Origin: an uncultured Lachnospiraceae bacterium
GTDB lineage: Bacteria; Bacillota; Clostridia; Lachnospirales; Lachnospiraceae
Length of the DNA stretch: 64,000 nucleotides
Direction of reading: 5' to 3'
NCBI GenBank assembly: GCA_900317555.1
Contig: ONHF01000004.1
Coordinates: 79,390 to 143,389, forward strand
The notes beneath the pieces are model-generated. The model was not told the origin of the DNA. It saw only the letters and a list, made by a program, of their open reading frames with translations, and ran no database searches. Shown here piece after piece: positions 18,668-55,724 of the stretch; within the stretch, counting starts at the first letter, position 1, and every line of letters begins with the position of its first letter. A program made the position numbers and the translations under genes.

Positions 18668-18695
18668 CAAGGACAGCAGGGGCATGCTTCACAAC
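18668..18695 (-). promoter_or_regulatory. Bipartite prophage motif, copy A
   Basis: On the minus strand: GTTGTGA, 13 nt, TGTCCTTG, followed by AAG. It is preceded 7-8 nt upstream by an AT-rich ATATTATTC tract. It ends 42 nt before the start of the 51-aa ORF. The same two half-motifs with the same 13-nt gap occur at 49439, 55273 and 55697. Confidence 0.75.
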
Positions 18696-18713
18696 TGAAT
18701 CAGAATAATATTT

Positions 18714-19004
18714 TCACATGGCATCTCTCAGCATCGCCGCCATCATCTTTCTCTGCTTCGCGCTCATCCGGCCGACCTCTTCCCTGCAGGCCTTCTTCTC
18801 CGGGTCCTCCGGTATGTCCGCCGGATTGATCCGCGAGATGGTGAGCCGCCCGTCCTCGGTCCGAACATCGACCCTGTCTCCCGGCCGGTAGCCGAGTTCG
18901 TTCAGCCACACGCCCTCCAGGATGATGCAGAGTGCCTCGTTCAGGCTTGCGTAACGCTGACGGGATGCGTGGACGGTGAGCATTCTTCTTTCCTTTTTCT
19001 TCAT
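18714..19004 (-). CDS. SymE-like toxin / AbrB-fold protein
   Basis: A 96-aa protein. Residues about 8-60 (LTVHASRQRYASLNEALCIILEGVWLNELGYRPGDRVDVRTEDGRLTI region) match the SymE/SpoVT-AbrB-like swapped-hairpin pattern W.NELGF.PGD.V.V. SymE-family proteins are toxins of type I toxin-antitoxin pairs, where translation is blocked by an antisense RNA. A basic, Met-rich tail follows. It lies between the prophage cargo gene and the recombinases. No antisense RNA gene can be pointed to, so toxin activity is an inference. The 230 nt upstream hold no other gene. Confidence 0.7.
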   Translation of the reverse strand: MKKKERRMLTVHASRQRYASLNEALCIILEGVWLNELGYRPGDRVDVRTEDGRLTISRINPADIPEDPEKKACREEVGRMSAKQRKMMAAMLRDAM

Positions 19005-19231
19005 GTGCGTTTCCTCCTGATGAATGATATGGAATGAGTCCTTGTACCGGAATGGTAGGGACGGCGGAGTGCCCCGCCGGCAGAAGGAGGAGCGATGGGT
19101 GCCGCGGATCTGCGGCGGACTCCCCCTGTTCCATCATCCTAGCAGGAAATCGGATTCGGCACAGCCCGTTTTTTCATGGAGGAAGTGAAAATCGTGAATC
19201 TGCACAGCCGGGTTGATCTTTTTCTGGCAAT

Positions 19232-19273
19232 AAAGAAAAGACCCCCGCCCTCCCTTCCGGGAGAGCAGGGGTC
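19232..19273 (-). terminator. Terminator of the 827-aa secreted protein gene
   Basis: A long GC-rich stem on the minus strand (GACCCCTGCTCTCCC with GGGAGGGCGGGGGTC, one mismatch zone) with a 4-nt loop is followed by TTTTCTTTA. It sits about 80 nt after the stop codon. Confidence 0.85.
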
Positions 19274-19351
19274 CAGCCCATATGCTATGAGACTTATTTC
19301 AGGCCGCGGGACGAACCATAGTCCTTCAGCCTTGTTATGTCACATTGTTGC

Positions 19352-21835
19352 TTAATCTACAGAGTAGAAGGAAATCTCCTCATACTTCCAGCCAGGCCAT
19401 GTCTTTACGACAGAGTTCTCATGAGCGCTGCCGGTGTAGAGGTGGTCACCGTTCGTCTCGTTCAGCAGACGGTATACAGGAATGGTTCCGGTGGAAGCTG
19501 CGTGGAACTTAACGCCCTCGCCGGTGAATCCTGCCCACTTGCTTACAGTGTCATACTCATGCTTGCTGGTCGTGTAAACATGACGGCCGTTGGTGTTGTT
19601 GACAATACGGTATACAGCAACGCCTGTGGTTGCATCCTTGCCAAGAACCTTGATGTTGGAAGTCTCTTCCGTGAAGCCCTGTGCCTTGATGCTTGCGATC
19701 TCTACAGTATCGTTCGTGTAGAAGTGCTCGCCGGTCGAAGGGTTGACGAAACGACGAAGGGTCGTAGGCACGCTGGAGCCGACACCGACAATGACGTCTA
19801 CAGAGGACACCTGCTTTACGCCAAAGCCGTTCGTGGTGTAGTTGACCTTCTTGGTGATGGCAATATTGTCAGCACCCTGGAAATCGATGTTCGTAGCAGT
19901 TGAGTCGATATTTTCAACACTTCCTGCTCCGCCATTCTTGGCAGCTACACCAGGAAGGGTTACGCCGCCCTGAACGAATGTCAGAGTTGAATTTGCAGTG
20001 AGTGCATCGCCAGTTGTGATCGTAGTATCTTTTGCGACCGCATAAGCGCTGATGATGCCATAGCCAGTAGAAGATCCTGCAGCTACCTGGTTGGAATTAT
20101 CGCCAACGAAATAGAGTACTTCGCCACCAGCGGTTGCATAAGACAGCGGAAGAGTCTTATCCATTGTAGTTACAGACTTTACAGTACCACTTGCAGAACC
20201 CATATCTACGATAAGAATACCATGAGCACCTGCACCGATTTCAGAAGCACCTACCTGCTCAACATTTACGTCATCGCCTTTAATACCATTGCCGACTGAA
20301 CCTGCCGTGCACTTAGGGGATTTCGTAACCTCAACAATTGCTTTGCTCGTTGAGTCGTCAGTACCTGTCAGGATGGAATACTTCTTGTCAGCTGTGAACT
20401 TGGTTACGCTCTGGGCATCCGTGAAGGTAACATCCTTGTTGGTATCATTTACGCAGTCAACATTGACGGTCTTTACATTGAGATTCTGGGTCATCGTATT
20501 GATTTTGGCTTCGTCAACAACGTACTTGTCACCGTTGATGTCAACTTCCAGAGTTTTCCCACCGTTGGTGAAAGTACCTGCATAAGACGTCGTGGATACA
20601 GTGTTGTCGTGATCCCAGCCGACCTTCTTCAGAGCAGATCCGCTCATGAGTGCGCCGGTCGTCCCGGCAATTGCATCGTCACCGACGAAGTACTTGTCGG
20701 TTACTGTCATGTATGTAGCGCTGGTCTTGTCGGTTTTCGTCTCGTGATATACGGAATAGCCGCTCTTCGGAGCTACAGTCAGGCTCTTGCCGTCGTTAGT
20801 GCCGGTTGTGTTGGAAACGCAAACTGCAGTAACGCCGTCACGTACGTCCTTCAGCGCGACTGCACCGCTTACGACCTCAACGTCGGTTGTAGAAGCGTTC
20901 TTGGATCCGTCAGCACCGGCAATCTTAGCGTTGATTGTGTCGTTGCCGACAACGTAAGCTGCGCTAGCCGTCGTGCCGTCAAACTTGAGGGTATAGGCAT
21001 TTTCGAGTTTTGCGATCGCTGTCGAAGAAGCAATCATGGGAGTTTCCATCTTCTTCGAATCGTTGGAACCGCACCAAACTAACGTAGAGGGATCGTTCTT
21101 GAAAACACCGCCGGTGATGGATGCTGCCGTGAGGATATCGTTGTTGTTACCTTTCTCAACGATGTCGCTTTCAGTCATAGCGGTCGTACCGTCGGCTTTC
21201 TTTCCGGCAAGATACGTAGCAGAATCAGTAATCGTTCCTGCAAAGTTACCGCCTGTGACAGTAAATGAAGAAGATGCTACTGTCGTAGGCTTTGCAGAAC
21301 TGCCGGTGCCAGAATGAGCAGCACCGTCAGAGAATGTGATATTCCCGACGACATACCCTCCATTGATTGTCAGGTTTCCGTAATTATCTGTGATAGTTCC
21401 GGTGACCTTGCCGCCGTTCAGCGTGAGACTGGAAATATTCTGTGCAGTCGTGCTGGGAGTAGCAAAGGTAATAGACGCGATTGTACCAATTGTTGTGTCA
21501 CCGTCGCCGGTGGTGTCGCTTGCTTCAATCGTGACCTTGGCTCCTACGGCATCAATGGTGACTGCACCGATTGCGTGCTCACCGATATCGATCGTATAAT
21601 CACCACCCGCTGCGATTTCAAGTGTAGTGGAAGATGTTGTCGCAACGCCCGTCTTGATCGAATATTTACCGCCTTTGTTAAGGGTTACTGTATCGGTTGC
21701 CGTGATGAGGTACTCATTGTCCGCATCAACGCCTACGTTGTTTGCTGCGAAGACGTTCAGGCTTGCGACAGGAGCAAAGGTTACGGCCATGACCGCTGCA
21801 AGAGCGACAGCGCCGAACTTTTTAAGATTTTTCAT
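19352..21835 (-). CDS. Large secreted protein with C-terminal DUF5648-like repeats
   Basis: An 827-aa protein. A Sec signal peptide (MKNLKKFG... with hydrophobic core, cleavage near VFA at residue 30) is followed by ~650 residues rich in Thr, Ser, Gly, Asn and Val. The C-terminal ~139 residues carry three units of the DUF5648 type: RRFVNPSTGEHFYT, YRIVNNTNGRHVYT and YRLLNETNGDHLYT. Such units are common in secreted carbohydrate-active or surface proteins. No LPxTG, transmembrane anchor or cysteine pattern is seen, so it is probably released or bound non-covalently. It has its own terminator and lies in the lysogenic cargo region of the prophage, so it may alter the surface of the lysogen (inference). 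Confidence 0.8.
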   Translation of the reverse strand: MKNLKKFGAVALAAVMAVTFAPVASLNVFAANNVGVDADNEYLITATDTVTLNKGGKYSIKTGVATTSSTTLEIAAGGDYTIDIGEHAIGAVTIDAVGAKVTIEASDTTGDGDTTIGTIASITFATPSTTAQNISSLTLNGGKVTGTITDNYGNLTINGGYVVGNITFSDGAAHSGTGSSAKPTTVASSSFTVTGGNFAGTITDSATYLAGKKADGTTAMTESDIVEKGNNNDILTAASITGGVFKNDPSTLVWCGSNDSKKMETPMIASSTAIAKLENAYTLKFDGTTASAAYVVGNDTINAKIAGADGSKNASTTDVEVVSGAVALKDVRDGVTAVCVSNTTGTNDGKSLTVAPKSGYSVYHETKTDKTSATYMTVTDKYFVGDDAIAGTTGALMSGSALKKVGWDHDNTVSTTSYAGTFTNGGKTLEVDINGDKYVVDEAKINTMTQNLNVKTVNVDCVNDTNKDVTFTDAQSVTKFTADKKYSILTGTDDSTSKAIVEVTKSPKCTAGSVGNGIKGDDVNVEQVGASEIGAGAHGILIVDMGSASGTVKSVTTMDKTLPLSYATAGGEVLYFVGDNSNQVAAGSSTGYGIISAYAVAKDTTITTGDALTANSTLTFVQGGVTLPGVAAKNGGAGSVENIDSTATNIDFQGADNIAITKKVNYTTNGFGVKQVSSVDVIVGVGSSVPTTLRRFVNPSTGEHFYTNDTVEIASIKAQGFTEETSNIKVLGKDATTGVAVYRIVNNTNGRHVYTTSKHEYDTVSKWAGFTGEGVKFHAASTGTIPVYRLLNETNGDHLYTGSAHENSVVKTWPGWKYEEISFYSVD

Positions 21836-21855
21836 CTCTTATTGTCCTTTCATAG

Positions 21856-21921
21856 TCAATAGGTTACTAAAACTTTTTGGTTCTTGTCGTGTGACATTTG
21901 ATATCTCTTTTGTCTCTTCAT
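21856..21921 (-). CDS. Possible 21-aa leader peptide
   Basis: A short ORF, MKRQKRYQMSHDKNQ..., with AAGGAGG three bases upstream of its ATG. It ends 20 nt before the secreted-protein start. The strong ribosome site and the basic, Lys/Gln-rich peptide suggest a translated leader that may regulate the next gene. It could also be chance. Confidence 0.35.
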   Translation of the reverse strand: MKRQKRYQMSHDKNQKVLVTY

Positions 21922-22288
21922 AGCCTCCTTCCTGGGCATGGGAACTGTACGCCGCTGTGTGTTCCGTCCTCCGCTCGTCGGTTTCCCGCCGCTCCTTCCC
22001 GGAGATACGGAGTCCTCGGCGCTCATGCAATTCCCGACCAAAGACCGGCCCGCCGCGGGAACTGAAGATACCCCCGCGGAACTTGTTTTGGCGGCGGTAT
22101 CCGGCACTGACCACAATGGGCATGCGAGCCGGAATCCTTCCGTCTTCTGGGAAGGGACGGCCCGGTCCTTGATCCGGAACTGCTGAATTCTCTCCCTGAG
22201 TGAAATAGATTGGGAAAAGATGAAAAATCAGATTTGAATTCGATGGATAAATATTCAGATGTCGATGTACTCGAAATATATAGGAACT
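21922..22288. other. Non-coding stretch upstream of the secreted-protein gene
   Basis: Frames here overlap in several directions and none has a ribosome site plus a credible protein. It probably contains the promoter of the secreted-protein gene; I cannot fix the boxes. Confidence 0.5.
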
Positions 22289-22372
22289 GCGGTGCCTGTG
22301 AAACATTGTGCCAGGCTCCGCACAAGTAGTCGTAAATTATTCTTTGTTCTTCAGGTGCGGTGCCTGGCTCCG
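22289..22372. repeat. REP-like repeat pair
   Basis: GCGGTGCCTG occurs at 22289-22298 and 22357-22366. GTGCCAGGCTCCG at 22308-22320 and GTGCCTGGCTCCG at 22360-22372 are near-identical. The first unit can fold (GTGCCTG against CAGGC). Sequences of this kind (GTGCCTGGCTCCG with GTTTCA nearby) are familiar as dispersed REP-type palindromes next to IS200-like REP transposases, but no transposase is seen here. Confidence 0.45.
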
Positions 22373-22393
22373 TTTCATAGCCCCGGCTCCGCT

Positions 22394-22828
22394 TCAGTTT
22401 TTTGCTTTCCCGGGCTTCTCCCGGATATATTCCTTCGATGCCCGCAGCACCTTGATCAGGAAGGCAGCCTCCGCCGGGCTCGTGTCGAGAAAGAGGTTCT
22501 GAATCTCCTTCTCTGTCTCATCAGCAGTCATGCGCCCCGCCTTGGGCGGTGTTCCGAAAAGGATCTCGTCCGGGGTGACATGAAGTTCCCGGGCGACGGA
22601 TGTCAGGAGTTCAAGCGAAAACCGCCGGTGTCCTGACTCAACTGCGGACATGTACTGTACGGAAATGCCGGCCTGCTTGGCCAGTTCGTACTGGCGCATG
22701 CCCTTTTCCTTTCGGATTCTGGCTATTCGTTTTCCGGCAGCTTCATAGTCGATGAATTCTCCGGAATTCGGTTGAATTTTCTTCTTGGCTGCGGCTATGA
22801 CTGACCTCCTCCGGCCGTTCGGACGCAT
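22394..22828 (-). CDS. XRE-family transcriptional regulator
   Basis: A 144-aa protein. An N-terminal basic tail leads to a Cro/C1-type helix-turn-helix at about residues 30-88 (KRIARIRKEKGMRQYELAKQAGISVQYMSAVESG). Its C-terminal ~55 residues are acidic/helical. It lies just after the terminator closing the late operon and is transcribed leftward on its own. It may be a prophage repressor or a regulator of the neighbouring cargo genes. GAGG lies near the ATG; an internal start nearer the HTH is possible. Confidence 0.85.
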   Translation of the reverse strand: MRPNGRRRSVIAAAKKKIQPNSGEFIDYEAAGKRIARIRKEKGMRQYELAKQAGISVQYMSAVESGHRRFSLELLTSVARELHVTPDEILFGTPPKAGRMTADETEKEIQNLFLDTSPAEAAFLIKVLRASKEYIREKPGKAKN

Positions 22829-22940
22829 CGCGCCTCATACATTCGCCGGACAAGAACTTTTTATCACACTTAGCCTATAGCTTGTAGCGAGATTGTTCTC
22901 ATGTATGGTTGAGTATTTTCTCATCTTTCTCTGAAGACGT

Positions 22941-23010
22941 AAAAAAGAGGGAAAGACAGGCGCCCCGTCCGTCTGCCGTGCTTTCGCCGCGCAGCCGTCC
23001 GGGGTGCCTG
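22941..23010 (-). terminator. Terminator closing the prophage late operon
   Basis: On the minus strand CAGGCACCCC pairs with GGGGCGCCTG (one G-T pair), enclosing a second stem, then TTTCCCTCTTTTTTAC. It begins 17 nt after the endolysin stop. Confidence 0.85.
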
Positions 23011-23026
23011 CCCTCCCCTCCTGAAT

Positions 23027-23680
23027 TCACTTTCCCTTTCTCATCAGTTCATTTACCCTCTTCTGCACCGCATAGTAGTCGAGTCCGAGTGCTTCCAGCT
23101 TCTTCTTCCTCTCCGCCCCGTTCCCGTACTTCCCTGCGATGACGCCCCGTGCGGCCGCCTCGACGCTCATCTTCTGCACGATGACGGATTCCGCATCATA
23201 CTTCGGCGCAGCGTACCCGCGGATGTATCCCCATCCGACCGGAATGGTCCGGCGCCCGACGGCGTCCCTGTAGTTTCCTTCGATGACGGTGATCTTCCCG
23301 TCCGTCACGGCTTCGACCACACCGATATGGTCGCTCCACCCGTCATTGGGCTGCGAGGCCTTGTCCCAGTTGTAGGCGATGATGTATCCAGGCTTCGGCG
23401 TGGCCCGCCCATCCTCAATCCATATGCCCTTCTTCTGGAAGATGCGGACATGCTCCTCCACCCCGCATTCGGTCCCGATCAGATCCGTCATGCCAGCCTT
23501 GATGGCCGCGGCCGAGACGGTCGCGTCGCACCAGGAGTCCGTGTACTTCACCTTATAGCCCCTGGCGAGCGGCCTGTGGCTGTTGTAGATGTCGATGATC
23601 TGCCGGTACTTCCCGTTTGCTTCGGAAAAACCGATCCATCCCCTCATTATATTGATGAGACTCTGCGCTGTCCGTGCCAT
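23027..23680 (-). CDS. Endolysin: CHAP-type amidase/peptidase with CW_7 domain
   Basis: A 217-aa protein. The N-terminal NlpC/P60-CHAP-type domain (residues ~1-155) shows YTDSWCDATVSAAAIKAG with the catalytic Cys near residue 51, DHIGVVE with the catalytic His near 117 and VIEGN. The C-terminal ~45 residues (AARGVIAGKYGNGAERKKKLEALGLDY..VQKRVNEL) are a Cpl-7/CW_7 cell-wall-binding repeat. It cleaves peptidoglycan cross-links at the end of the lytic cycle. It is the last late gene, 1 nt after the holin stop, and has no signal peptide, as expected with a holin partner. Confidence 0.92.
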   Translation of the reverse strand: MARTAQSLINIMRGWIGFSEANGKYRQIIDIYNSHRPLARGYKVKYTDSWCDATVSAAAIKAGMTDLIGTECGVEEHVRIFQKKGIWIEDGRATPKPGYIIAYNWDKASQPNDGWSDHIGVVEAVTDGKITVIEGNYRDAVGRRTIPVGWGYIRGYAAPKYDAESVIVQKMSVEAAARGVIAGKYGNGAERKKKLEALGLDYYAVQKRVNELMRKGK

Positions 23681-23681
23681 A

Positions 23682-24155
23682 TTATTCTTCGCCTCCCTTT
23701 CCGTCTTTCTTCTCGCCCTTCTCTGCTTCCTCTTCTTTCAGCCGGCTGCTCTCTTTCTCAGCACGGTGATGCAGCTGCTCGAGGACCTGCTTCAGACTGT
23801 CCGGGACCGGCAGTCCCAGGTAGGCGCTGTTCTCGAGGAGAGATAGTCCCTCGTTGGAGATGTAGAAGAAGATGATTGCGGTCCTCAGCACGCCGGGCTC
23901 CCCGAGAACGTTGACGTCGATGACGTTCCCGATCCCGACCATGACGAAGATCAGGACCTTCCGGCAGATGCCCTTGAATCCCACATCCGAGGACAGCTTC
24001 CGGTCCGCAATGGCGCACAGCACCCCGGTGATGTAGTCGCAGATTACGAGAATCAGCAGTGCATAGAACATTTCATCCGCACCTCCCACGAAGTATCCTG
24101 CCCAGCCGCCGATGACGGCAAAGACTGCCTGAATCCCGTTCCAGAAATCCTTCAT
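23682..24155 (-). CDS. Phage holin (toxin-secretion/lysis holin family)
   Basis: A 157-aa membrane protein. Hydrophobic segments at about residues 8-25, 30-50 and 65-85, the conserved LILVICDYITGVLCAI segment and the C-terminal charged Glu/Lys-rich tail fit the Cph1/phi29-type family of Gram-positive phage holins. It forms the membrane lesion that releases the adjacent endolysin. It is followed directly by the endolysin and preceded by tail genes. Confidence 0.92.
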   Translation of the reverse strand: MKDFWNGIQAVFAVIGGWAGYFVGGADEMFYALLILVICDYITGVLCAIADRKLSSDVGFKGICRKVLIFVMVGIGNVIDVNVLGEPGVLRTAIIFFYISNEGLSLLENSAYLGLPVPDSLKQVLEQLHHRAEKESSRLKEEEAEKGEKKDGKGGEE

Positions 24156-24162
24156 AGTACGC

Positions 24163-29984: not shown

Positions 29985-29987
29985 CCC

Positions 29988-46625: not shown

Positions 46626-48974
46626 TCACGGCTTTCTTCCATGCTTTCTCTGCCAGACGCGCTGACGGCCGTAAATGCCTGAAGACATGTACTTTCCGGT
46701 CTTCTCCCAGTCGTCGAAGTGCATCATGATGGCCGTGATGGCATAGCTGTCCGACCGCTGCATGTCCGCCTTCTGCCGGCCGAAACATTCGACCCAGATT
46801 TCCATATTGGAAACCGTCTCTCTGAGAATGACGCCCTTCCGCTTCGTCGGGTCCCCGGCATCCCTGATGTAGTCCAGCCGGTCGTAGACATCCATTTCAT
46901 TCCAGTTGTCCGGCAGCAGGGTATCGAGATAGTCCGCGACAAGGCCTTCCCGGTCGTCATGCTCCAAGGCATCGTTCTGTTCCTTCTCTGCGAGTTCGGA
47001 GAGGTCCGGCGGCAGGTAAAGTTTTTCTCCGTCGGCCGTCTCCTTCACCTCCGCCCATATCTGGTCGATCACATCCTGGGTGATTTCCCACGGATGCTTG
47101 TCAGACTTTCCAGTCACCCGGACGTTCCAGAAGCGGCGGTTCCCGGTAACATCCCTGAGATAGCCGTCCTCCGAGTTCGTGGTTCCGATGAAGACGTTCT
47201 GCCGCGGATGCGGGGATACCCGTCTTCCGAAGGATGCCCTGTACTTGTCATCCTGACGGCTGATAAAGGCCTTGACCTTGTCAACATCGGCTTTCCTCAT
47301 CCCGGCCAGTTCGCCGATCTCGAGGATCCAGTAGCCCTGCAGCTTTTCGGCCGCCGTTTTGTCGTTCATATCTGAGAGAGAAAGGCTGTCCGAATACCAC
47401 TGCATTCCGAGCATGGCAACTGCGGTGGATTTCCCGATTCCCTGCGGTCCGTTCAGGACAATGCAGTAATCGAACTTGATGCCCGGATGCTGTATCCGTT
47501 CATATGCTGCGCAGAGAGTTTTTCTCGTGACCGCCCGCGTGTAGCGGTTGTCTGCCGCCCCGAGATAGTCGATGAAGTAGGTCTCCGCCCTGGGAATTCC
47601 GTCCCATGCCGGAAGGGAGTCGAAGTATCTGCGGATCGGGTGATAGGACCGGTCGTCCGCGACCTTCTGCACAGCCAGCATGTAGTTGCTCTGGCTGAAG
47701 GTTCCGTACCTGTCATCGATGTAATTGATCAGCTGCGCGTCATCAGCGTCGCGCCAGAAGCGCGCCGGATGCTTCCAGGGAACCTCACCGACAATCTCCA
47801 TTCCGTCTGCCAGCTGATTGAAGACGATGCCCTTCAGGTTGCTGTCGTTTTCAAGGATCAGGCGGACGTTCCGGAGCGTGTTCTTCACCTTCCCGGTCTT
47901 CCGGTCATATTCCAGATGCTGCTGCCAGTCTTCCGCATCCTCGCCCGAAAAATCAGCGGACGCTTCCGCCTGTCTCGACCGAAGCGCTTCGGCCTTGACC
48001 TCCGGCAGCGTCATGGCGAAGCTGCACATCTGGTCGAAGCTTCCCTTCTCGTCCCCGAAGCGGTGGATCCGAACGATGTCGAAGGCATTGCAGAGTTTCA
48101 TGCAGGCCGGGTCCTTTGCATGGTGGCTGTAGACGAACTTTCCGTCGTCCTTGATCTCCACGCCCGGAAGGCTGTCTGACTCGACGAGGTGCCAGCGGTC
48201 TTCGCGGTCGGTGGGTTCATAGACATCCGGCAGAAACTTCTCCAGAGCCTTTGAGATCGGATAATATGCACGGTTGAAGAATCCGACGATGCCGTCCTTT
48301 GTAAGCGGATCCTGAACGGCGGCCGCTCCGGGTCTTCCGGCCTTCGTCTCCCTGGGAGAACAGGGCAGATAGATCGGATCCTTCCATCCGGGATGGCCGG
48401 CCAGATACCTGTCCGGATCCAGCCAGTCACCGTAGGCTTCCTTGAAGACGTATTCTCCGTCGCTCGGCGTGCTTGGCCAGTACATGAGCTGGTTCGGACG
48501 AAACGAGACCGGATCGAACCATTCCATGCCGATCTCCGATGCGATGTAGCGCGAAATGGCGTTGAACTCGTCCGGCGTCATGTCCCGCATTGACGGAATA
48601 ATGATCCGCGCCCTCGGAGCATCCGGCGTGCTGCTGTGCGTCGTGTACATGAACGCCTCGAAGGGAATCCGGCTCTCGAACCCGTCGATCAGTTCCCGGG
48701 GAACATGATCCCCGTCAAGGGCGATGCATGACCGGCTTTCGACTTCGTTTGCAAGCCGTCGTGTTCCCTTCAGCGTTCCGGCGACGAAGCCGCCGTGATC
48801 CTTGGCCCGCTGCTTCTCTTCCTTTGTAAAGGTCTTGTATTCGGCCGTCGTCTCCGGCGTACGCATGGTGGTCTTCATCTTCTCCAGGAGATCTTTGTAG
48901 TCGATCTTCCTGTTGACCCACCGCTTTGCCTGGCAGCTGTTTCCGCAGGCAATGGCTAATTCGCGCGTGAACAT
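46626..48974 (-). CDS. VapE-family primase/helicase-like replication protein
   Basis: A 782-aa protein. The N-terminal ~300 residues form a primase-polymerase-like region (SCIALDGDHV, THSSTPDAPRARIIIPS, LMYWPS). Residues ~430-680 are the virulence-associated E (VapE) P-loop domain with Walker A NGPQGIGKST near 507, EIGELAGMRKADVDKVKAFIS and FIGTTN.EDGYLRD.TGNRRFW. It probably primes and unwinds phage DNA with the family A polymerase. Its ATG overlaps the TAA of the upstream gene. Confidence 0.93.
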   Translation of the reverse strand: MFTRELAIACGNSCQAKRWVNRKIDYKDLLEKMKTTMRTPETTAEYKTFTKEEKQRAKDHGGFVAGTLKGTRRLANEVESRSCIALDGDHVPRELIDGFESRIPFEAFMYTTHSSTPDAPRARIIIPSMRDMTPDEFNAISRYIASEIGMEWFDPVSFRPNQLMYWPSTPSDGEYVFKEAYGDWLDPDRYLAGHPGWKDPIYLPCSPRETKAGRPGAAAVQDPLTKDGIVGFFNRAYYPISKALEKFLPDVYEPTDREDRWHLVESDSLPGVEIKDDGKFVYSHHAKDPACMKLCNAFDIVRIHRFGDEKGSFDQMCSFAMTLPEVKAEALRSRQAEASADFSGEDAEDWQQHLEYDRKTGKVKNTLRNVRLILENDSNLKGIVFNQLADGMEIVGEVPWKHPARFWRDADDAQLINYIDDRYGTFSQSNYMLAVQKVADDRSYHPIRRYFDSLPAWDGIPRAETYFIDYLGAADNRYTRAVTRKTLCAAYERIQHPGIKFDYCIVLNGPQGIGKSTAVAMLGMQWYSDSLSLSDMNDKTAAEKLQGYWILEIGELAGMRKADVDKVKAFISRQDDKYRASFGRRVSPHPRQNVFIGTTNSEDGYLRDVTGNRRFWNVRVTGKSDKHPWEITQDVIDQIWAEVKETADGEKLYLPPDLSELAEKEQNDALEHDDREGLVADYLDTLLPDNWNEMDVYDRLDYIRDAGDPTKRKGVILRETVSNMEIWVECFGRQKADMQRSDSYAITAIMMHFDDWEKTGKYMSSGIYGRQRVWQRKHGRKP

Positions 48975-49396
48975 TATTCTTCCTCCCCTGTTTCGTGGCA
49001 GTCTTCATCGAACCGGCGGATCGGCATGCCCTTCCTCTCCGCCTGCCGGATTTCGGCCTCCATGCCTTCCGTGACCGTGCTGCCGAACACCCACAGTTCC
49101 GCGGTCTTTGACAGCAATGCCCGGTCCATGAACAGCACAAGATCCCGCTCCTCCGGCTCACGGATGATTCCGTCCAGCATCAGATGCGGGCACAGCGGAA
49201 TCCGTCCCTGGTCGATGACAAACCGTGCATACCGTTTTGCTTTTTCAATGTTTCGTGAAACGTCGCCCGAATACGGCGAGCAGAGATAGATGATGGGCAT
49301 GAAGGGGAACACGGTCCCGTACGCGGACCGGATGGCTTCGAACGCCGTCGGATCGCGGTACCCTTCATGATTCCGGACGGTCAGCTTGTCTTCCAC
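48974..49396 (-). CDS. DUF4406/DUF7768-like (nucleoside deoxyribosyltransferase fold)
   Basis: A 140-aa protein starting from GTG (EDKLTVRNHEGYRDP), with AAGGAGGTG upstream. IIYLCSPYSGDVSRNIEKAKRYARFVIDQGRIPLCPHLM and ELWVFGSTVTEGMEAEI fit the small phage-borne nucleoside 2-deoxyribosyltransferase-like family. It could act on nucleotide pools or modified nucleotides; the substrate is unknown. It is preceded by bipartite motif copy B at 42 nt, so it probably heads the VapE transcript. Confidence 0.8.
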   Translation of the reverse strand: MEDKLTVRNHEGYRDPTAFEAIRSAYGTVFPFMPIIYLCSPYSGDVSRNIEKAKRYARFVIDQGRIPLCPHLMLDGIIREPEERDLVLFMDRALLSKTAELWVFGSTVTEGMEAEIRQAERKGMPIRRFDEDCHETGEEE

Positions 49397-49438: not shown

Positions 49439-49466
49439 CAAGGACACGATGAACAGAAATCACAAC
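49439..49466 (-). promoter_or_regulatory. Bipartite prophage motif, copy B
   Basis: GTTGTGA, 13 nt, TGTCCTTG on the minus strand, followed by AAGCAGTGA as in copy C. An AT-rich tract (AAAAAAAATTC) lies just upstream. It ends 42 nt before the GTG start of the DUF4406-like gene. Confidence 0.78.
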
Positions 49467-49530: not shown

Positions 49531-49564
49531 GAAACAGGCGCGCACCCTTTCGGATACGCGCCTG
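49531..49564 (-). terminator. Terminator after the 30-aa ORF
   Basis: On the minus strand CAGGCGCG pairs with CGCGCCTG, with a partly paired 14-nt interior, followed by TTTCTTTTCTC. It is about 20 nt after the 30-aa ORF stop. Confidence 0.75.
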
Positions 49565-49583
49565 CCCCGCAGTCACCTGAGGA

Positions 49584-49676
49584 TTATTTCTTATCGAACA
49601 CATCAATGATGCGAAGGATAATCTTCTCCACAGTGTGAATTGCTTCGATGATGACTTCGTCGCTCATGTTATTCAT
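49584..49676 (-). CDS. Small ORF, 30 aa
   Basis: MNNMSDEVIIEAIHTVEKII... with AAGGAGG six bases upstream. Amphipathic helical and without cysteine. It lies between the terminator at 49531 and the divergent plus-strand gene. Ribosome site and terminator support translation; function unknown. It could belong with the divergent gene as a small partner or antitoxin, which is untested. Confidence 0.5.
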   Translation of the reverse strand: MNNMSDEVIIEAIHTVEKIILRIIDVFDKK

Positions 49677-49786
49677 GGCAACCTCCTTGTGAAAGTGTTT
49701 TGACAACAGGCTACAGAATGAGGTCATCATCAATGATAATAATATTCCGCCGAATAAATTCGCGCAAGCTGCAGGAGGAAAAAAGC

Positions 49787-50728
49787 ATGAGCATTCCCTA
49801 TAACGACGAAGCCTATGAGGCTGTCATAAAAATAATTCTGAACGATATCTATTATGTGCCTGGACTTTCACTGGATACAAAAATTTCAAGACTCCGTACT
49901 TATACTGAAATCATTCTGCGGCGTCTGCTTGGCTGGCCAATGGGCAAAGAACTGACCCTCGGGGATAAAAATATAACTGCTGAGTTGAAGCGAAAAGGCT
50001 ATACAGAGGATATCTTCCGCCATGCTCTGAGAACCATTAATCGCCGCGGAAGCAATCGAACTCATACGCAGATAACGACTCCGGCAACTGATCAGGAATA
50101 TCAAAATGTCGAACAGAGCCTTCTGAACCTCTATGGCTATTTGTTTTATGTCTTCTTCCGGAAGTATCCCTTCGGATCCAACCCTGATATTATGTCAAAA
50201 TTCTCACTGCTCCCGCCGGTTATCCGATACATTGCGCTGAACGAACTGTATAAAAAGGATCCGCTGAACATCAATGTCATCGACAAGCTTTCCCTCGCCA
50301 TCATGAAGGCATTCAGTCTGGAAAGAGCCCTGGCATGGCTGGAGGAGAACAGGGAGGCTCTCAGCAAAATCTCTTCTGTCACGGATGCCGACAGAAAGGC
50401 TCTGATCGGATTATTCGGACTTGAGCAGGGAAATCAGATTGCCGATATGGGTGGGGACATGTACAGCCAATGCCGCACCAGAGTCATTCAGGTTGCCGAA
50501 CTGCGGAATAACGGCGGTATCTCCTATGATTCCTTTGAAACGGCTCTGAAGTACTACAAAGAGAACGGCATCGTTGAAGGTGACACCTCGGATGTGAAGG
50601 AATTCAACGACCTGATGGCCTTCGTGTACATCGGCCGGAAGGAAGCCGAGGAGCAGATTGCCTCCCTGGATGAGAGCCAGTATATAATCAACAGCATCAC
50701 CTGGGTTCTCCCTCCTGAACAGGCATAA
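49787..50728 (+). CDS. Plus-strand insertion gene, unknown (DUF4145/HEPN-like start)
   Basis: A 313-aa soluble, mostly helical protein starting MSIPYNDEAYEAV, preceded by AGGAGG. The N-terminal LDTKISRLRTYTEIILRRLLGWP segment is reminiscent of DUF4145-type helical domains; no R-x4-6-H HEPN active site is clear. It is the only plus-strand gene among leftward prophage genes from 14.8 to 56 kb, AT-richer than its neighbours, and ends in a bidirectional terminator. These are marks of a separately acquired 'moron' gene, possibly anti-phage. Function unknown. Confidence 0.75.
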   Translation: MSIPYNDEAYEAVIKIILNDIYYVPGLSLDTKISRLRTYTEIILRRLLGWPMGKELTLGDKNITAELKRKGYTEDIFRHALRTINRRGSNRTHTQITTPATDQEYQNVEQSLLNLYGYLFYVFFRKYPFGSNPDIMSKFSLLPPVIRYIALNELYKKDPLNINVIDKLSLAIMKAFSLERALAWLEENREALSKISSVTDADRKALIGLFGLEQGNQIADMGGDMYSQCRTRVIQVAELRNNGGISYDSFETALKYYKENGIVEGDTSDVKEFNDLMAFVYIGRKEAEEQIASLDESQYIINSITWVLPPEQA

Positions 50729-50734
50729 AATAAA

Positions 50735-50769
50735 GGCCGGACACCACACGATGCCCGGCCCGATTTTTT
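50735..50769 (+). terminator. Bidirectional terminator between the plus-strand gene and DNA polymerase
   Basis: The stem GGCCGG/CCGGCC (extending through CGGGC with mismatches) has TTTTTT on the plus side and TTTATTTTAT on the minus side. It serves both the plus-strand gene and the convergent DNA polymerase gene whose stop codon it touches. Confidence 0.85.
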
Positions 50770-52757
50770 CAGTCCTTCATATAGAATTCGCACTCGTACC
50801 CGTCCGCCCGGAGCAGCAGCCCGGGGATCCACGGCGGCGTGCGCCCCATCTTCTCGCAGATTGCATCGACCGATGCGTCCATCGGGCATTCCGCGATGAT
50901 TTCGTCATGAACATGAGCGACAATCTGCACATCCTTCAGGGTATTCATGGCATAGCAGAGGATGTCGCGGCAGACGGCCTGGGTGATGTTCTCGACCAGC
51001 TTTCCGCCGAAGGTCTCGGTCCTCTCCCACTTCTTCGTCTGTCCGACGTTCATGTAGGTGATTGATTCCGATCCGAACCTGTTGATGCCCAGCCGCGGTT
51101 TAACATAAGAGAGCCTGCGTCCCGACGGCAGTTCGATGAAAAGCATTCCGCTCTCGCAGATGAAGCGGATCCCGCGGACGGATGTCGTCCTCCGCTCCCG
51201 AACGGCCGTCTTCGCAGCGAGGTCGACGTCGTGCCAGAAACGGACGATGTGCGGATTCGCCCGCCGCCAGGCGTCGACGATTGGCTGCAGTTCGTCGTCC
51301 TTCAGACCCATCTCCCGCGCGCCCATCGAGATCAGCGCGCCCGTCGCGCCGCCGTAGCCGCATGCCAGGGTCGCAATTTTCCCACGCTGCCTCAGTTCCG
51401 AGTTGACGCCGTGCTTCACTACGGGCTTGTGAAACATGGCCGATGCCGTGGCGCAGTACAGGTCCTCACCGCGTGCGAAGGCGTCGATCGTGTGCTGCTC
51501 GCCCGCAAGGAACGCGAGGCATCTCGCCTCGACAGAACTGTAGTCCGCGACGACGAACTTCATGCCCGGTTTTGGGATCAGCGCCGTCCGGATCAGCTCG
51601 CTGAGTACCTGGGGCACAGAATCATAAATAATATTCACGGCCTCGTAATCCCCCGTCTTCACAAGGCTGCGCGCCTCCGCGAGATCCGGCATGGAGTTGC
51701 GGTACAGGTTCTGCAGCTGCACGATGCGGCCGGAAAAGCGTCCGGAACGGTTTGCGCCGTAGAACTGCGTCATGCCGCGGATGCGGCCGTCACTGCAGGC
51801 CGCCGACTTCATGGCGATGTACTTCTTCACGGATGTCTTTGCCGCCTGCTGCCGGAGAAGAAGGACGTCCTTCACCTCTCCCTGCGCCGTCTTCAGAAGC
51901 TCCGCGACCTGCTTCTTACCGAGAGAATCTGCAGGGCAGCCGTGTTCCTTCAGCCAGGAAAGAAGCTGGACCGGAGAGTTCGGATTGGCAAGCCCGGTGA
52001 TCTCCCGCATCTGCCCCATCAGGTCCTGCTGACTCTGATCGTCAAGAATAATGGCGCTGTCCACCAGTTTTTTATCAATCAGCACTCCACGGTCGTTGAT
52101 CCGCTCGCTCATATGATATTCGTCCCAGACGGAATCCGGCACCGGATACTTCTTCAGCCGGTCCTTGACTCCCATCTCCGTGACGACGTCCCTGATATTG
52201 TAGGCGCAGAAGGTCGACCATTTCTCCGGTGCGTCTTCGGGCCGGTTGACGGTACGGTACCCGTTCGTCTTCGTCGGCCTGCAGGGAATGCAGAAGAAGC
52301 GGATCAGGTCACGGCCTTCCGTCATCTTCTGTTCCGTCAGATGAAGTGCTTTGCCGACCGCGTCAAGCGAGAGCGGAAGTCCCAGGTATGCGGACCATAC
52401 CATGCTGCACTTCCATCCTTCCGGATCGAGGTAGTTTCCCGTACTGTCTCCCGGCGGGCCGTAGCCTTTGAAGATGTCCGGCCGGTGCCTTCTCAGCCAA
52501 GTCGATGAGGCGATCCGTTCGAACGAGGCATTGAAGGCCCACTTCTCAACCTTTGGATCCGCCAGCGCCCGGAGGATGTCGTCCGGCGGCAGGTCGCCCC
52601 TCGTAAAGTCGTACTGGACGACCGGTCCGTCATTGACAGACACGCCCATGAGGAGGATCCGTGAAGCCGGGGACTCCCAGTAGCGGTAGGCGCCGCACTT
52701 CCGGATGTCCTGATCGGAGAAGGACTCGTAGTCCAGGGACATTTTTTCAATTTCCAT
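50769..52757 (-). CDS. Phage DNA polymerase, family A
   Basis: A 662-aa protein starting MEIEKMSLDYESFSDQDI; ATG at 52757 is chosen because GGAGG ends seven bases upstream. The N-terminal region has a DnaQ-like LDYESFS.D metal motif. The polymerase domain shows motif A VVADYSSVEARCLAFLAGE near residue 400, motif B (RQRGKIATLACGYGGATGAL) near 465 and motif C AHVHDEII near 612. It replicates phage DNA together with VapE and the SSB-like protein. Confidence 0.95.
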   Translation of the reverse strand: MEIEKMSLDYESFSDQDIRKCGAYRYWESPASRILLMGVSVNDGPVVQYDFTRGDLPPDDILRALADPKVEKWAFNASFERIASSTWLRRHRPDIFKGYGPPGDSTGNYLDPEGWKCSMVWSAYLGLPLSLDAVGKALHLTEQKMTEGRDLIRFFCIPCRPTKTNGYRTVNRPEDAPEKWSTFCAYNIRDVVTEMGVKDRLKKYPVPDSVWDEYHMSERINDRGVLIDKKLVDSAIILDDQSQQDLMGQMREITGLANPNSPVQLLSWLKEHGCPADSLGKKQVAELLKTAQGEVKDVLLLRQQAAKTSVKKYIAMKSAACSDGRIRGMTQFYGANRSGRFSGRIVQLQNLYRNSMPDLAEARSLVKTGDYEAVNIIYDSVPQVLSELIRTALIPKPGMKFVVADYSSVEARCLAFLAGEQHTIDAFARGEDLYCATASAMFHKPVVKHGVNSELRQRGKIATLACGYGGATGALISMGAREMGLKDDELQPIVDAWRRANPHIVRFWHDVDLAAKTAVRERRTTSVRGIRFICESGMLFIELPSGRRLSYVKPRLGINRFGSESITYMNVGQTKKWERTETFGGKLVENITQAVCRDILCYAMNTLKDVQIVAHVHDEIIAECPMDASVDAICEKMGRTPPWIPGLLLRADGYECEFYMKD

Positions 52758-52816
52758 GTGCACCTCCAGCCGAAAAAGAGCGGGCTTCCGCCCGCCCTCC
52801 TTCTCATTGTTCAGTT

Positions 52817-52972
52817 TTAATGCGTCTCCGCTGTCCGCTTGTGCGCATGCTTCCGGAAGAATCCGACGATGCCCTTCACAAGCCAGTAGAGTCCGTAGAA
52901 ATCAAATGCCAGTGCCGCGCCAAGACCGCTCGACAGAAGGAATTCCCTCGCAAATTCATAATATGCGTTCAT
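52817..52972 (-). CDS. Small membrane protein (51 aa)
   Basis: MNAYYEFAREFLLSSGLG..., with a hydrophobic stretch at residues ~12-40 (LGAALAFDFYGLYWLVKGIVGFF) and a basic His/Lys/Arg tail. The upstream AAAGGAC is weak. It lies between the SSB-like protein and DNA polymerase in the same direction. Function unknown. Confidence 0.55.
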   Translation of the reverse strand: MNAYYEFAREFLLSSGLGAALAFDFYGLYWLVKGIVGFFRKHAHKRTAETH

Positions 52973-53027
52973 CAGGCTTTGTCCTTTCCGGGACTGCAGG
53001 CTTTACCCCGCAGTCCCTTCACATTTG

Positions 53028-53609
53028 TCAGGAGAGGAAATCCTCGTCTCCGTCGTCATCGTCATCATCCGCATCCGCGAAATCATCCTCAGCGCGGCTG
53101 CGGCCTCCGAACGGCTTGCCGTCCTTCACCTTCTGAATGTTGTTCAGTCCGCAGGCGATGCCCTTCGAACCGTTGACGTTGTAAGCGTAGAAGGAGATGC
53201 TGACACGGGCATAGACGCCGGAGTACACCTCGCTGTGATCGAGGATCTCGTTGCGGTCGAGGTCGACGATGCCGGGTGCCATATAGGACTTGGCGGAGAT
53301 GAACCAGCATCCCGCGAATTCCGGCTGATCCGGGCGTTCCTCATCGCCGTCCCTGAGAGGCGTGCGGATGGCGGAAAGGGGAGGAACGCTCTTCCCGTTG
53401 CCCTTCAGCTTGGTCTTTCCCTCCTCGTAGGCTGCCTCGATGGCCGCGCGGATCTTCTCAAGCGTCTTCTCGTCGGTCTTCGGGATATTGAGGACGCAGG
53501 AATAAGCTTCCCTGCCCCCGTTCAGTCCCGGCTTCGGGGTCCATACATTTGCATAGCTGAGTCTCGTCTGTGCGCTTGTGATTACCTTTGTAGCTGCCTT
53601 GTTTTTCAT
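53028..53609 (-). CDS. DUF2815 ssDNA-binding-like protein
   Basis: A 193-aa protein. KVITSAQTRLSYANVWTPKPGLNGGREAYSCVLNIPK and EVYSGVYARVSISFYAYNVNGSKGIACGLNNIQKV are the DUF2815 signature. The acidic tail (DFADADDDDDDGDEDF) resembles the C-terminal tip of single-stranded DNA-binding proteins. It probably coats ssDNA in phage replication next to the polymerase and the DUF2800 nuclease. Confidence 0.92.
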   Translation of the reverse strand: MKNKAATKVITSAQTRLSYANVWTPKPGLNGGREAYSCVLNIPKTDEKTLEKIRAAIEAAYEEGKTKLKGNGKSVPPLSAIRTPLRDGDEERPDQPEFAGCWFISAKSYMAPGIVDLDRNEILDHSEVYSGVYARVSISFYAYNVNGSKGIACGLNNIQKVKDGKPFGGRSRAEDDFADADDDDDDGDEDFLS

Positions 53610-53621
53610 GATGTTTTCTCC

Positions 53622-54749
53622 TTAATCATCAAAGTCTTCCTGTGCCGTTGATACATTGAGTTCCGGCCGCCTGTCCGTGTCGGGGACAAGGGTCGGTCTG
53701 CCCGGAGGCTTGTCAACGAAGCCGTCCAGGAGTTCCTCGAACTTCTGCTTTCCGAGCATCGAGGTCATGGCCGTGATGCCCTTCAGCTTCCGCTCGTATG
53801 GATCAAAGCCCGCGCCGCTGACCGCCTCCGCCACCGCCTTTTCATCGGTGTACTTCCGTGTCGAGCGTCCGGCGACAAGCTTGTGACCTTTCCATTTCTT
53901 TCCCCTGAGTGCCTCCTGCAGGGCGTATGCCTGCACATCGGATACCCAGGATGCCAGTTCCGCGGACCGGTCGAGAATGGCCTCAATCTCCTCGTCCTCA
54001 AGGGTGTCCGGCATGGCGAAGTCGTACCGGGCGAGTTCGAGATTGTATTCTGCCCTCTTCCGGCAGACGTTCCGGATCTTGCAGAACCGGCAGTGCGGTC
54101 CTGCTCTGTACTCGCCTTCTCCGCGCCAGGCCAGCTGCGCAGCCGGCTTCAGAACTTCTTCTGCCCACCGGAACATGTCCTCCCGGGGCATCTCGAAGAT
54201 GCTGACATTGTCCTTGCGCGGCTGAAAGATGCACATCCGCACCGTGTCGATGTCATAGATGCCGTCGAAGAGGAGGCACATGCCAAGGCCATAGCACATG
54301 AGCTGGGTGTTATGGTCCGCCGAAACTTCGACGCCCTCGCCATGTTTGTAGTCGATGACCGCCGAGGTGCCGTCCGCCGCGATGATGCAGTCCGCCGTTC
54401 CGAAGGATTCCGGGACATAAGCGGAAAGATCCAGGCGCTGCTCCACGAGGATGGTCGGGTCGCCGCAGTTTCTGCGGATCTCTTCCGCCTGTTCTGTGAC
54501 GAACGCCGTGTACTCATCGGCGCACCGCTGCATTTCAGCATCATAATGTGCCAGCTTGTTTCGCGGGTTCCGGGCCTTCTGGCCGGCGGCCTTCTTCACC
54601 TGGAACTCGCAGAGGCTGTGCGCCTCCGTGCCAAGTTCGGCATATTCGCTCTGCTGATCCGGAACTTCCGCATTCTTCTGAGCCGAAGGCGGGCAGGCGA
54701 GCCAGCGTGCGCTGGCGGAAAGGGCAAGATATGCGTGCTTGTCAGGCAT
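53622..54749 (-). CDS. DUF2800 family nuclease (PD-(D/E)XK, Cas4/AddB-like)
   Basis: A 375-aa protein starting MPDKHAYLALSASARWLACPPSA. The core has GTEAHSLCEFQ (His motif), FGTADCIIAADGTSAVIDYKHGEGVEV (D...DYK active site) and a C-terminal cysteine set CRFCKIRNVC near residue 235, suggesting an Fe-S cluster as in Cas4-like nucleases. Usually paired with DUF2815 in Clostridia prophages, as here (12-nt gap). It probably acts in recombination-dependent replication. Confidence 0.9.
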   Translation of the reverse strand: MPDKHAYLALSASARWLACPPSAQKNAEVPDQQSEYAELGTEAHSLCEFQVKKAAGQKARNPRNKLAHYDAEMQRCADEYTAFVTEQAEEIRRNCGDPTILVEQRLDLSAYVPESFGTADCIIAADGTSAVIDYKHGEGVEVSADHNTQLMCYGLGMCLLFDGIYDIDTVRMCIFQPRKDNVSIFEMPREDMFRWAEEVLKPAAQLAWRGEGEYRAGPHCRFCKIRNVCRKRAEYNLELARYDFAMPDTLEDEEIEAILDRSAELASWVSDVQAYALQEALRGKKWKGHKLVAGRSTRKYTDEKAVAEAVSGAGFDPYERKLKGITAMTSMLGKQKFEELLDGFVDKPPGRPTLVPDTDRRPELNVSTAQEDFDD

Positions 54750-55113
54750 GGCCGAGTCCCTCCGCATCCTTCATGAGTTCAGAATAATGTGAAGGATCAA
54801 TCTCCTTCAGCCTGCTGCCGCCGTACTTTTCAAAGAGTTCACGGATTTCCTCCTTGTACCCCTCCTTCAGCTTGACGGCGAGCACCGCACGGACGTCTTC
54901 CTTTTTGACGGCTTTCTCCTGAACTTCTTCCGCCATCTCAGCGTCCTTTGTCTTTTCCGCAGCCCCGGCTGTCTTCTCAGAAGTGCCGTCAGGCGCTTCG
55001 GCCCCTGCGGCAAGCTGTCCGGCGATGCCGATCAGCTTCTCTCCGCAGGAGCGGAGTTCGGCCGCAAGCTTCTCATTTTCCTTCTCTGTCACTGGCTGTG
55101 CCTCCTTTTCCAT
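54742..55113 (-). CDS. Phage early protein, unknown
   Basis: A 123-aa protein. The N-terminal half is coiled and Glu/Lys/Ala-rich; the C-terminal VRAVLAVKLKEGYKEEIRELFEKYGGSRLKEIDPSHYSELMKDAEGL module is common in Clostridia phages beside DUF2800 (it is sometimes given the unhelpful name rrp5-like). It overlaps the DUF2800 gene start. Possibly an accessory for the replication nuclease; unproven. Confidence 0.75.
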   Translation of the reverse strand: MEKEAQPVTEKENEKLAAELRSCGEKLIGIAGQLAAGAEAPDGTSEKTAGAAEKTKDAEMAEEVQEKAVKKEDVRAVLAVKLKEGYKEEIRELFEKYGGSRLKEIDPSHYSELMKDAEGLGHA

Positions 55114-55222
55114 TCTTCAGTTTTTCCGCCATGCGGTCGGCGATGACCGCGATCGCATGCAGGATTGTGCGCGGGTCGTTCCCGCCCCAGGAACCGATCC
55201 CTGTGATGTAAGCCGAATGCAT
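55073..55222 (-). CDS. Small early protein (49 aa)
   Basis: Starts MHSAYITGIGSWGGNDPR. The longer frame to 55297 would run through the bipartite motif, so the ATG at 55222 after GAAGGTGAGG is preferred. It overlaps the start of the next gene. Gly-rich N-terminus then a helix (TILHAIAVIADRMAEKL). Function unknown. Confidence 0.6.
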   Translation of the reverse strand: MHSAYITGIGSWGGNDPRTILHAIAVIADRMAEKLKNGKGGTASDREGK

Positions 55223-55271
55223 TGTCCTCACCTTCCTCTCTGTCTGCTGCCCTTTCGGCTTCCTCACTGCT

Positions 55272-55661
55272 TCAAGGACAGCTGCTGTCGGATTCACAAC
55301 CGAATTCCGAAAAAATCTTTTCCGCGTCCCAGGTCTCCGGCCGGCCGAAGCATTCTGCGGCGAGGATGACGTCTTCCGCCGTGAGGCTGTCGAATTCGTC
55401 GTCGCTGTGGTCGCCCATGAGAAGCATGTTCCCGGCGTAGATGTCGAGAATCTTCCCGTCGGAGTCCCTTACCGACCGGTTCAGGGGAAGGCCGTCCAGC
55501 TTTCCCGTCTCGCTGACCGCGACGCAGATGCCGTCGCCGATCGGCCAGGTGAATTCGGCCGGACCGCCGACAAGTTCGCGGATCCGCTTCCCGGTCGGTT
55601 CGATGCAGATCAGTTCCGGCTCCTTGCCGGGTTCGATCAGCATGGCTGCAATGTTCTTCAT
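55272..55661 (-). CDS. DUF3846-like protein
   Basis: A 129-aa protein starting MKNIAAMLIEPGKEPELI, after AAGGAGGTGCG. The segments GPAEFTWPIGDGICVAV, GLPLNRSVRD.DGKILDIYAGNMLLMG and the conserved LTAEDVILAAECF fit DUF3846, often found in mobile elements and phages. Its last codons lie within the bipartite motif copy C. It is itself preceded by copy D. Confidence 0.8.
   Translation of the reverse strand: MKNIAAMLIEPGKEPELICIEPTGKRIRELVGGPAEFTWPIGDGICVAVSETGKLDGLPLNRSVRDSDGKILDIYAGNMLLMGDHSDDEFDSLTAEDVILAAECFGRPETWDAEKIFSEFGCESDSSCP
55273..55300 (-). promoter_or_regulatory. Bipartite prophage motif, copy C
   Basis: GTTGTGA, 13 nt, TGTCCTTG on the minus strand, followed by AAGCAGTGA like copy B. 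The AT-rich tract GATTTTTTC lies upstream. It overlaps the 3' end of the DUF3846-like gene and ends 50 nt before the 49-aa ORF. Confidence 0.75.
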
Positions 55662-55696
55662 TTCGCACCTCCTTCTGCAGTACCTCTGCAGAATTA

Positions 55697-55724
55697 CAAG
55701 GACAGGGGATTGCCTTTTCACAAC
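55697..55724 (-). promoter_or_regulatory. Bipartite prophage motif, copy D
   Basis: GTTGTGA, 13 nt, TGTCCTTG on the minus strand; ATATTATTC lies upstream as in copy A. It ends 35 nt before the DUF3846-like start. Confidence 0.75.

Follow-up and report, generated by a model that had tools for sequence, protein, structure and literature searches.

Some phages encode sigma factors that serve middle or late promoters of their own, an established kind of regulator exemplified by gp55 of T4, gp28 of SPO1 and the factors of phiEco32 and 7-11. A system comparable to these appears to be carried by a prophage of an uncultured Lachnospiraceae bacterium (assembly GCA_900317555.1), within a 64,000-nucleotide stretch of contig ONHF01000004.1 (positions 79,390 to 143,389 of the forward strand) that is referred to here as the window. 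The prophage contains four copies of a two-box motif, GTTGTGA-N13-TGTCCTTG, consisting of box1, a 13-nt spacer and box2, and it encodes a sigma-like protein. Judging from sequence comparisons, the motif is very probably a prophage promoter whose box1 is read by a helix of the sigma-like protein, whichever way box2 is read. As in the known phage sigma systems, a phage gene would send the host polymerase to a few phage promoters with non-host elements. Unlike those systems, the protein and its relatives have only about 155-175 residues, with region 4 as their only detectable sigma region and a four-cysteine motif; the -10-like box is TCC-rich; and the dialect of the promoter changes with the helix from phage to phage.

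Three other described systems invite comparison. Extracytoplasmic function (group IV) sigma factors share with the window protein the region 4 part of the TIGR02937 profile, a similar size and a two-box promoter, but positions 1-84 of that profile are unmatched by the window protein. The late activators RinA, ArpU and LtrC are likewise small transcription factors, encoded by phages of Firmicutes. Their targets are late genes for packaging and lysis, whereas the sites described here lead replication and recombinase genes, and searches of the window protein against Pfam, PHROGs and NCBIfam returned none of their families. The DUF2800 RNA (RF02960) is a cis-regulatory element of the same gene neighbourhood, but it is 158 nt long, lies before the sigma-like gene and is different from this motif.

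The prophage resembles the gut phages of Candidatus (Ca.) Heliusviridae and Heliusvirales in that the window holds DUF2800, DUF2815 and DNA polymerase genes. These belong to the nine genes that, according to PMC9226167, are shared by Ca. Heliusviridae (DUF2800, DUF2815, DNA polymerase I, VRR-NUC, SNF2-like helicase, terminase, portal, Clp protease and capsid). The word 'promoter' is absent from the main text of that paper, and no description of this promoter class was found in the literature searched, which included passages of PMC9226167 and PMC13432834. New here are the reduced factor, the dialects and the natural exchange of a helix.

A repeated two-box element in the prophage

A reading of the window made from its letters and open reading frames (the sequence-only reading) had described four exact minus-strand copies of the motif with a constant 13-nt gap. 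All four were recovered, against none expected from 100 dinucleotide shuffles of the window:

18668-18695, minus strand: copy A, with box1 GTTGTGA, a 13-nt spacer and box2 TGTCCTTG; the start codon of a 51-aa open reading frame lies 42 nt on
49439-49466, minus strand: copy B; the DUF7768 gene starts 42 nt on
55273-55300, minus strand: copy C, overlapping the 3' end of the DUF3846 gene; a 49-aa open reading frame starts 50 nt on
55697-55724, minus strand: copy D, behind the terminator-like hairpin of the sigma-like gene; the DUF3846 gene starts 35 nt on

These distances agree with the 35-50 nt that had been claimed. The AT-rich tract ending in TTC or TC a few nucleotides upstream of the boxes is present in all four copies, and copy C does sit inside a coding 3' end, where it covers the last codons and the stop codon of the DUF3846 gene. 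One label needs correction: the gene after copy B, called 'DUF4406-like', is assigned to DUF7768 by the current Pfam (E 3e-33). The letters of the 13-nt spacer are free. In copies A, B and C, GAAG directly follows the T of the TCCTT in box2, and TGA(A/G)G follows about 10 nt on. Copy A additionally takes part in an 11-bp inverted repeat, CATGCCCCTGC (18676-18686) and GCAGGGGCATG (18623-18633), the second arm of which contains the start codon of the 51-aa open reading frame.

Allowing up to three mismatches adds a single window match (268-295; 1.5 expected). In a count of dyads across positions 14829-58806 (6+6 letters, gaps of 8-20), the motif was the only non-palindromic dyad present four times. 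The spacing of its boxes is like that of -35 and -10 elements, and box2 is unlike the housekeeping -10. A repeated, non-host, two-box element that always lies on the same strand and before genes has the features of a phage-specific promoter class.

A genome-wide pattern search, which the sequence-only reading had proposed as a check, found four exact copies in the assembly (2.29 Mb, 32 contigs, 87% complete), all of them in the prophage. With up to two mismatches there were nine further places versus seven for a reversed control pattern, which is no clear excess. The abundance of copies across the host genome that would have spoken against the sequence-only reading was not seen. The exact motif was absent from the 98 other genomes searched, 60 of which are of the same genus. 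Exact-motif scans of larger collections returned 88 stretches in viral contigs and at least 118 in genome contigs, from unrelated organisms (contig names were given for 80 of the 88 and for 80 of the at least 118); by our estimate we judge these to be chance matches. Among these 206 stretches only L007 has more than one copy. L007, L016 and L020 are IMGVR_UViG_2799112517_000001, which is 99.99-100% identical to the window prophage, so that the sole IMG/VR record with several copies among those listed is the same prophage and not independent evidence.

The element in related phages

The gene order sigma-like protein, small genes, DUF2800, DUF2815, DNA polymerase, DUF7768 and helicase is common to many phages, several of which are named Ca. 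Heliusvirales in GenBank. Scans of 13 related loci gave nothing convincing when mismatches to the window letters were allowed, and no four-copy dyad other than palindromes and AT runs (three-copy dyads lay outside the output), because the relatives use other letters. Their version of the element was recognised by reading the equivalent gene junctions. It typically consists of box1 YCGYTCAAA, 13 free bases, and box2 TCCAGTGG or TCCATTGG, and a regular expression for it matched 33 of 49 distinct rows.

The element recurs at three places. At place 1 it begins 25-83 nt past the stop codon of the sigma-like gene (regular-expression matches), the exceptions being L224, L225, L265 and L268, where it lies 0-5 nt past the stop. 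Place 2 is 4.3-5.1 kb past the same stop codon, just beyond the polymerase gene and between it and DUF7768. Place 3 precedes small genes followed by serine recombinases; in the three loci checked with Pfam (L323, L314 and L291) the next large open reading frame encodes a large serine recombinase. Place 3 is preceded in L323 and L314 by an endolysin-like gene (GH25 or CHAP with LysM), with a terminator-like hairpin between. The suggestion that copy A, near the recombinases, belongs to the same regulon as the distant copies is strengthened by these three loci, in two of which the element stands behind the endolysin gene.

On the evidence of gene order, the window copies C, B and A occupy places 1, 2 and 3, and copy D is extra. 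Gene order and the small open reading frame that follows copy C lead us to equate it with the copy that comes first after the sigma-like gene in relatives. Copy D apparently goes with the DUF3846 gene, which is absent from that position in the relatives' junctions read there.

Two sampling points bear on how often the element occurs. Loci L286-L396 were fetched by the element pattern itself (113 matches, 57 within 6 kb of a module gene) and are uninformative on frequency. A position-weight scan of 12 phage loci gave two strong copies in three of them, one weak copy in L401 and none above threshold in eight, because the matrix knows only the TCAAA dialect. Separately, L386 carries tandem elements at 659-760, box1 GGCTCAAA followed by GGCCAAA, before one small helix-turn-helix-like gene.

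Within a phage, the letters of the element are shared between places. Twenty-six loci were given, four of which lacked the necessary polymerase-end region, leaving 22 for comparison. Places 1 and 2 agree in box1 and box2 at 17-19 of 19 letters, with the gap of 13, in 16 of these 22 loci, whereas the best of 20 shuffles per locus reached 13-16 of 19. The spacers of same-phage copies agree in only 3-9 of 13 letters. When the four loci fetched by the element (L310, L325, L326 and L338) are left aside, 12 of 18 share both boxes. The dialects include TCTGTTCAAA (L230), TTTCGGCCAA (L231), TTCGTCCAAA with TCCAGTGAG (L228), TCGTTCAAAC with CCATTGGG (L325), TTGCCCAAAA with CCAAGGGG (L402) and GTGACCAAAA with CCTCTT (L265).

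Coupling of box1 to the sigma-like protein

The window sigma-like protein matches TIGR02937 with an E value of 6e-11 (residues 46-151 against profile positions 85-165 of 165) and a score of 42.2 bits, just under the cut-off of 42.9. Its match to PF08281 (Sigma70_r4_2; E 3e-5, 24 bits) is below the cut-off of 25.7, while the L402 protein scores 32.1, above it. Among the 60 of 110 PDB matches listed are region 4 of FliA, SigA and extracytoplasmic function factors, and NarL-type helices. By sequence, the C-terminal part would be a sigma-70 region 4 helix-turn-helix. Pfam (E up to 0.1) gives no family for the N-terminal part of the five proteins scanned; this part contains four cysteines that are invariant in ten aligned sequences, three of them also in a second set of 19. 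The host genome yields a single match to the protein at E up to 1e-10.

Across 34 sequences with an element after the sigma-like gene (one being the window, aligned by the TCC of box2), Mantel tests showed that, once the remainder of the protein is controlled for, sequences further apart in the C-terminal helix-turn-helix are also further apart in box1 (partial r 0.49 for nine letters and 0.39 for eight, p 0.0002 for both). The rest of the protein does not predict box1 with the helix held (p 0.34 and 0.26), nor does the helix predict the spacer (p 0.66) or box2 (p 0.44). The coupling is retained in 24 dereplicated sequences (r 0.48, p 0.0002), after removal of the L230/L231 pair (r 0.35, p 0.0015), and in a dereplicated set of 20 from which the window and the weaker element assignments L225, L265 and L268 were removed (partial r 0.69). 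Box2 also correlates with the protein outside the helix (r 0.41, p 0.0002), but this was dropped as evidence, since the neutral spacer correlates as well (r 0.57, p 0.0002) and nothing follows for box2.

A natural pair of phages gives the same picture at close range. The sigma-like proteins of PV036431 and PV036425 (L230 and L231) have six differences in residues 1-146 and change abruptly from residue 147 to the end, which is the helix-turn-helix part; their genes are 93% identical in DNA over the first 438 bases. Box1 reads CTGTTCAAA in one phage versus TCGGCCAA in the other at both sites, 4.4 kb apart, while box2 is identical and the sequence after it nearly so. CTGTTCA(A/G)A is the box1 of six further loci that have the L230 helix, three of which are alike over the stretch shown. 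Another helix, that of L409 and L410, goes with TGTGGACC at their first site, and the second site of L409 has GCGGACC. L412-L414 and L401 combine a like helix and different N-termini with TTCGTCAAA. It is covariation of this kind that points to the phage protein as the source of specificity. Taken across phages, comparison of sequences establishes the repetition of the element, its fixed gap, its conserved places, the within-phage dialect and the coupling of box1 to the helix.

Proposed mechanism and competing explanations

The sequence-only reading had offered two possibilities: a promoter class that the prophage sigma-4-like protein helps to read, or a site for some other phage regulator. 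We favour the first, given that the same element stands at the sigma-like gene and at DUF7768 in relatives and that its box1 tracks the helix. In the model we propose, the sigma-like protein (55875-56342) would be made first, behind a leader with a terminator-like end, and would steer the host RNA polymerase to the sites. Box1, GTTGTGA, would lie at -35 and be contacted by the C-terminal region-4-like helix-turn-helix; box2, TGTCCTTG, 13 nt on, would lie at -10 and be read by the same protein or by a partner. Switched on in this way would be the replication genes (copies C and D), the DUF7768-helicase segment (copy B) and the recombinase segment (copy A). We infer the start of RNA at the element, the way box2 is read and the order of expression.

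Terminator-like hairpins fit this model. In 26 of 35 rows (34 of relatives, with one locus present twice, and window copy D) a strict rule finds a hairpin with a T-rich tail between the stop codon of the sigma-like gene and box1, which suggests that transcription starts anew there. The hairpin ends 12-24 nt before box1 in the relatives and 96 nt before it at copy D.

Several observations weigh against the promoter model. The exact window form of the motif is known from one genome only, and in the window two more bases separate box1 from the TCC of box2 than in the relatives. Among 27 sigma-like loci fetched by protein homology, including four weak ones (L264, L272, L273 and L280; E 5e-7 to 1e-9), the element is found in 14, made up of 11 by the regular expression and three variants (L262, L401 and the window record); the remaining loci may use unrecognised dialects, or none. 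No shared pair of boxes was found in six of the 22 loci compared: L268, L266, L400, L399 and L411 are at or below their own shuffles, and L233, counted as none, reaches 16 of 19 versus 14 in shuffles with letters unlike the element. In L268 the element assignment fails at the second site. Sigma region 2 was detected neither by Pfam and profile searches nor among the 60 of 110 PDB matches listed. The Mantel tests remove shared ancestry only in part, and the terminator count has no shuffled control. Finally, of 27 polymerase/DUF7768 sites, 14 have a spacer that pairs with sequence downstream (p<0.05; for example at L228 9786, L230 20416 and L262 11457), and the stems differ between phages.

The missing region 2 leads to a variant that overlaps the promoter model rather than opposing it. 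The sigma-like protein may not be a full specificity factor: it could bind box1 at -35 and recruit polymerase carrying the host main sigma, or a second phage or host subunit could supply region 2. SigO-RsoA of Bacillus subtilis offers a parallel for such a split of sigma function. That only region 4 is detectable, and that the five proteins scanned have no N-terminal Pfam family at E up to 0.1, speaks for this variant. However, box2 (TCCAGTGG in relatives, TGTCCTTG in the window) is unlike TATAAT, which would leave the main sigma to function in the absence of its -10, and no partner gene was found, though none was looked for. We regard the variant as possible but rather unlikely.

The pairing at the DUF7768 site could instead indicate that the element acts as RNA, either as a hairpin in the 5' untranslated region or as a nut-like antitermination site, and the inverted repeat of copy A, which reaches the start codon, would suit this too. 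Such pairing is scarce elsewhere: it occurs in 1 of 22 post-terminator sites, 0 of 19 recombinase sites, 1 of 11 unclassified sites and 1 of 4 window copies (copy A). Box1 follows a DNA-binding helix, Rfam has no match at the motif at E up to 5, and in those relatives that have a terminator-like hairpin it ends so close to box1 (12-24 nt) that there is little room for another promoter. A general RNA function was rejected on the ground that hairpins are found at the DUF7768 site and lacking at the other sites, and we consider an RNA element improbable. The spacer pairing is read here as an added hairpin for transcripts arriving from upstream, superfluous for the promoter reading.

Two conserved half-sites at a fixed distance might also suit one dimer of another phage regulator, with the element as an operator for a repressor or activator and not a promoter; a neighbouring 674-aa protein does have a weak Cro/C1-like helix-turn-helix. 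Yet neither half-site is an inverted or direct repeat of the other, box1 tracks the helix of the sigma-like protein, and terminator-like hairpins precede many of the copies, which together make an operator very improbable. Lastly, copy C can be read in frame as the peptide SCE....CP-stop, ending in the stop codon of DUF3846, as though the motif were a coding signature or a chance repeat. Shuffles give an expectation of zero, third codon positions are kept too, a stop codon lies just upstream in that frame in copy A, and the two-box layout recurs in other phages. The peptide reading was rejected on the shuffles and the comparison, and there is next to no chance that this explanation is correct.

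Gene neighbourhood

The genes and other features around the copies are as follows:

55875-56342, minus strand: gene for the sigma-like protein, 155 aa, with a four-cysteine N-terminal part and a C-terminal sigma region-4-like helix-turn-helix; the proposed reader
55272-55661, minus strand: DUF3846 gene (Pfam E 4.5e-20), the first gene after copy D
55073-55222, minus strand: 49-aa open reading frame after copy C, by eye like the small open reading frame after the first copy in relatives
48974-49396, minus strand: DUF7768 (nucleoside 2-deoxyribosyltransferase-like) gene after copy B (Pfam E 3e-33)
18470-18625, minus strand: 51-aa open reading frame after copy A, with serine recombinase genes next
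16511-18403, minus strand: large serine recombinase, 630 aa, downstream of copy A
14829-16949: second large serine recombinase, 706 aa, in tandem with the 16511-18403 gene
55816-55852, minus strand: terminator-like (intrinsic) hairpin with a T run, following the sigma-like gene and preceding copy D
56429-56530, minus strand: leader of the sigma-like gene, with pairable ends GTGCGCATGA and TTTCGTGCGCC, then a T run

Family searches of the window proteins gave no match for the 51-aa open reading frame after copy A. The two tandem serine recombinase genes (14829-16949 and 16511-18403) are 73% identical in DNA over about 420 bases. The window DUF2800 and DUF2815 proteins are about 50-67% identical to their counterparts in the PV0364xx phages, and the DNA polymerase up to 59%. 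Elsewhere in the host genome (G000:C21:52717-55125; L249 and L260) there is a second helicase/DUF2800/DUF2815 module without the motif, whose helicase is 45% identical and has one internal TGA.

The ends of the leader and its T run are common to the window (56429-56530) and a 41%-identical relative, L224/G099 (1415-1520, minus strand). The proposed pairing of the ends comes from a two-sequence alignment and reading by eye, and computed single-sequence folds favour other pairings. The leader is a possible attenuator of the early switch, and the sigma-like gene may be switched on by relief of termination.

In L232 (6125-6281) and L268 (3375-3534) the DUF2800 RNA precedes the sigma-like gene, and this position makes that gene, not DUF2800, its likely target. 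It reaches the gathering score in two of the 20 loci given; since some of these loci are truncated upstream of that gene, the RNA may be commoner. It has no match in the window or in the stretch 56300-56800 at E up to 5.

Implications

Together these comparisons yield a scheme of early gene control, open to testing, for a very common group of gut phages, and they make candidate promoter-specificity factors, each with predicted target sites, of proteins annotated as hypothetical. They also raise the question of how the -10-like box is read if sigma region 2 is missing from the protein. We tentatively suggest, at somewhat less than even confidence, that this widespread gut phage lineage has a stripped-down specificity factor, in which a region-4-like reader is joined to a small four-cysteine domain that replaces region 2, and that each phage keeps its own dialect by swapping the helix and changing box1 at all promoters together. 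The near-identical natural pair that differs in the helix and the -35-like box offers a handle on how the specificity of sigma region 4 evolves. If the proposal is true, the dialects would be a naturally made orthogonal set of sigma-promoter pairs.

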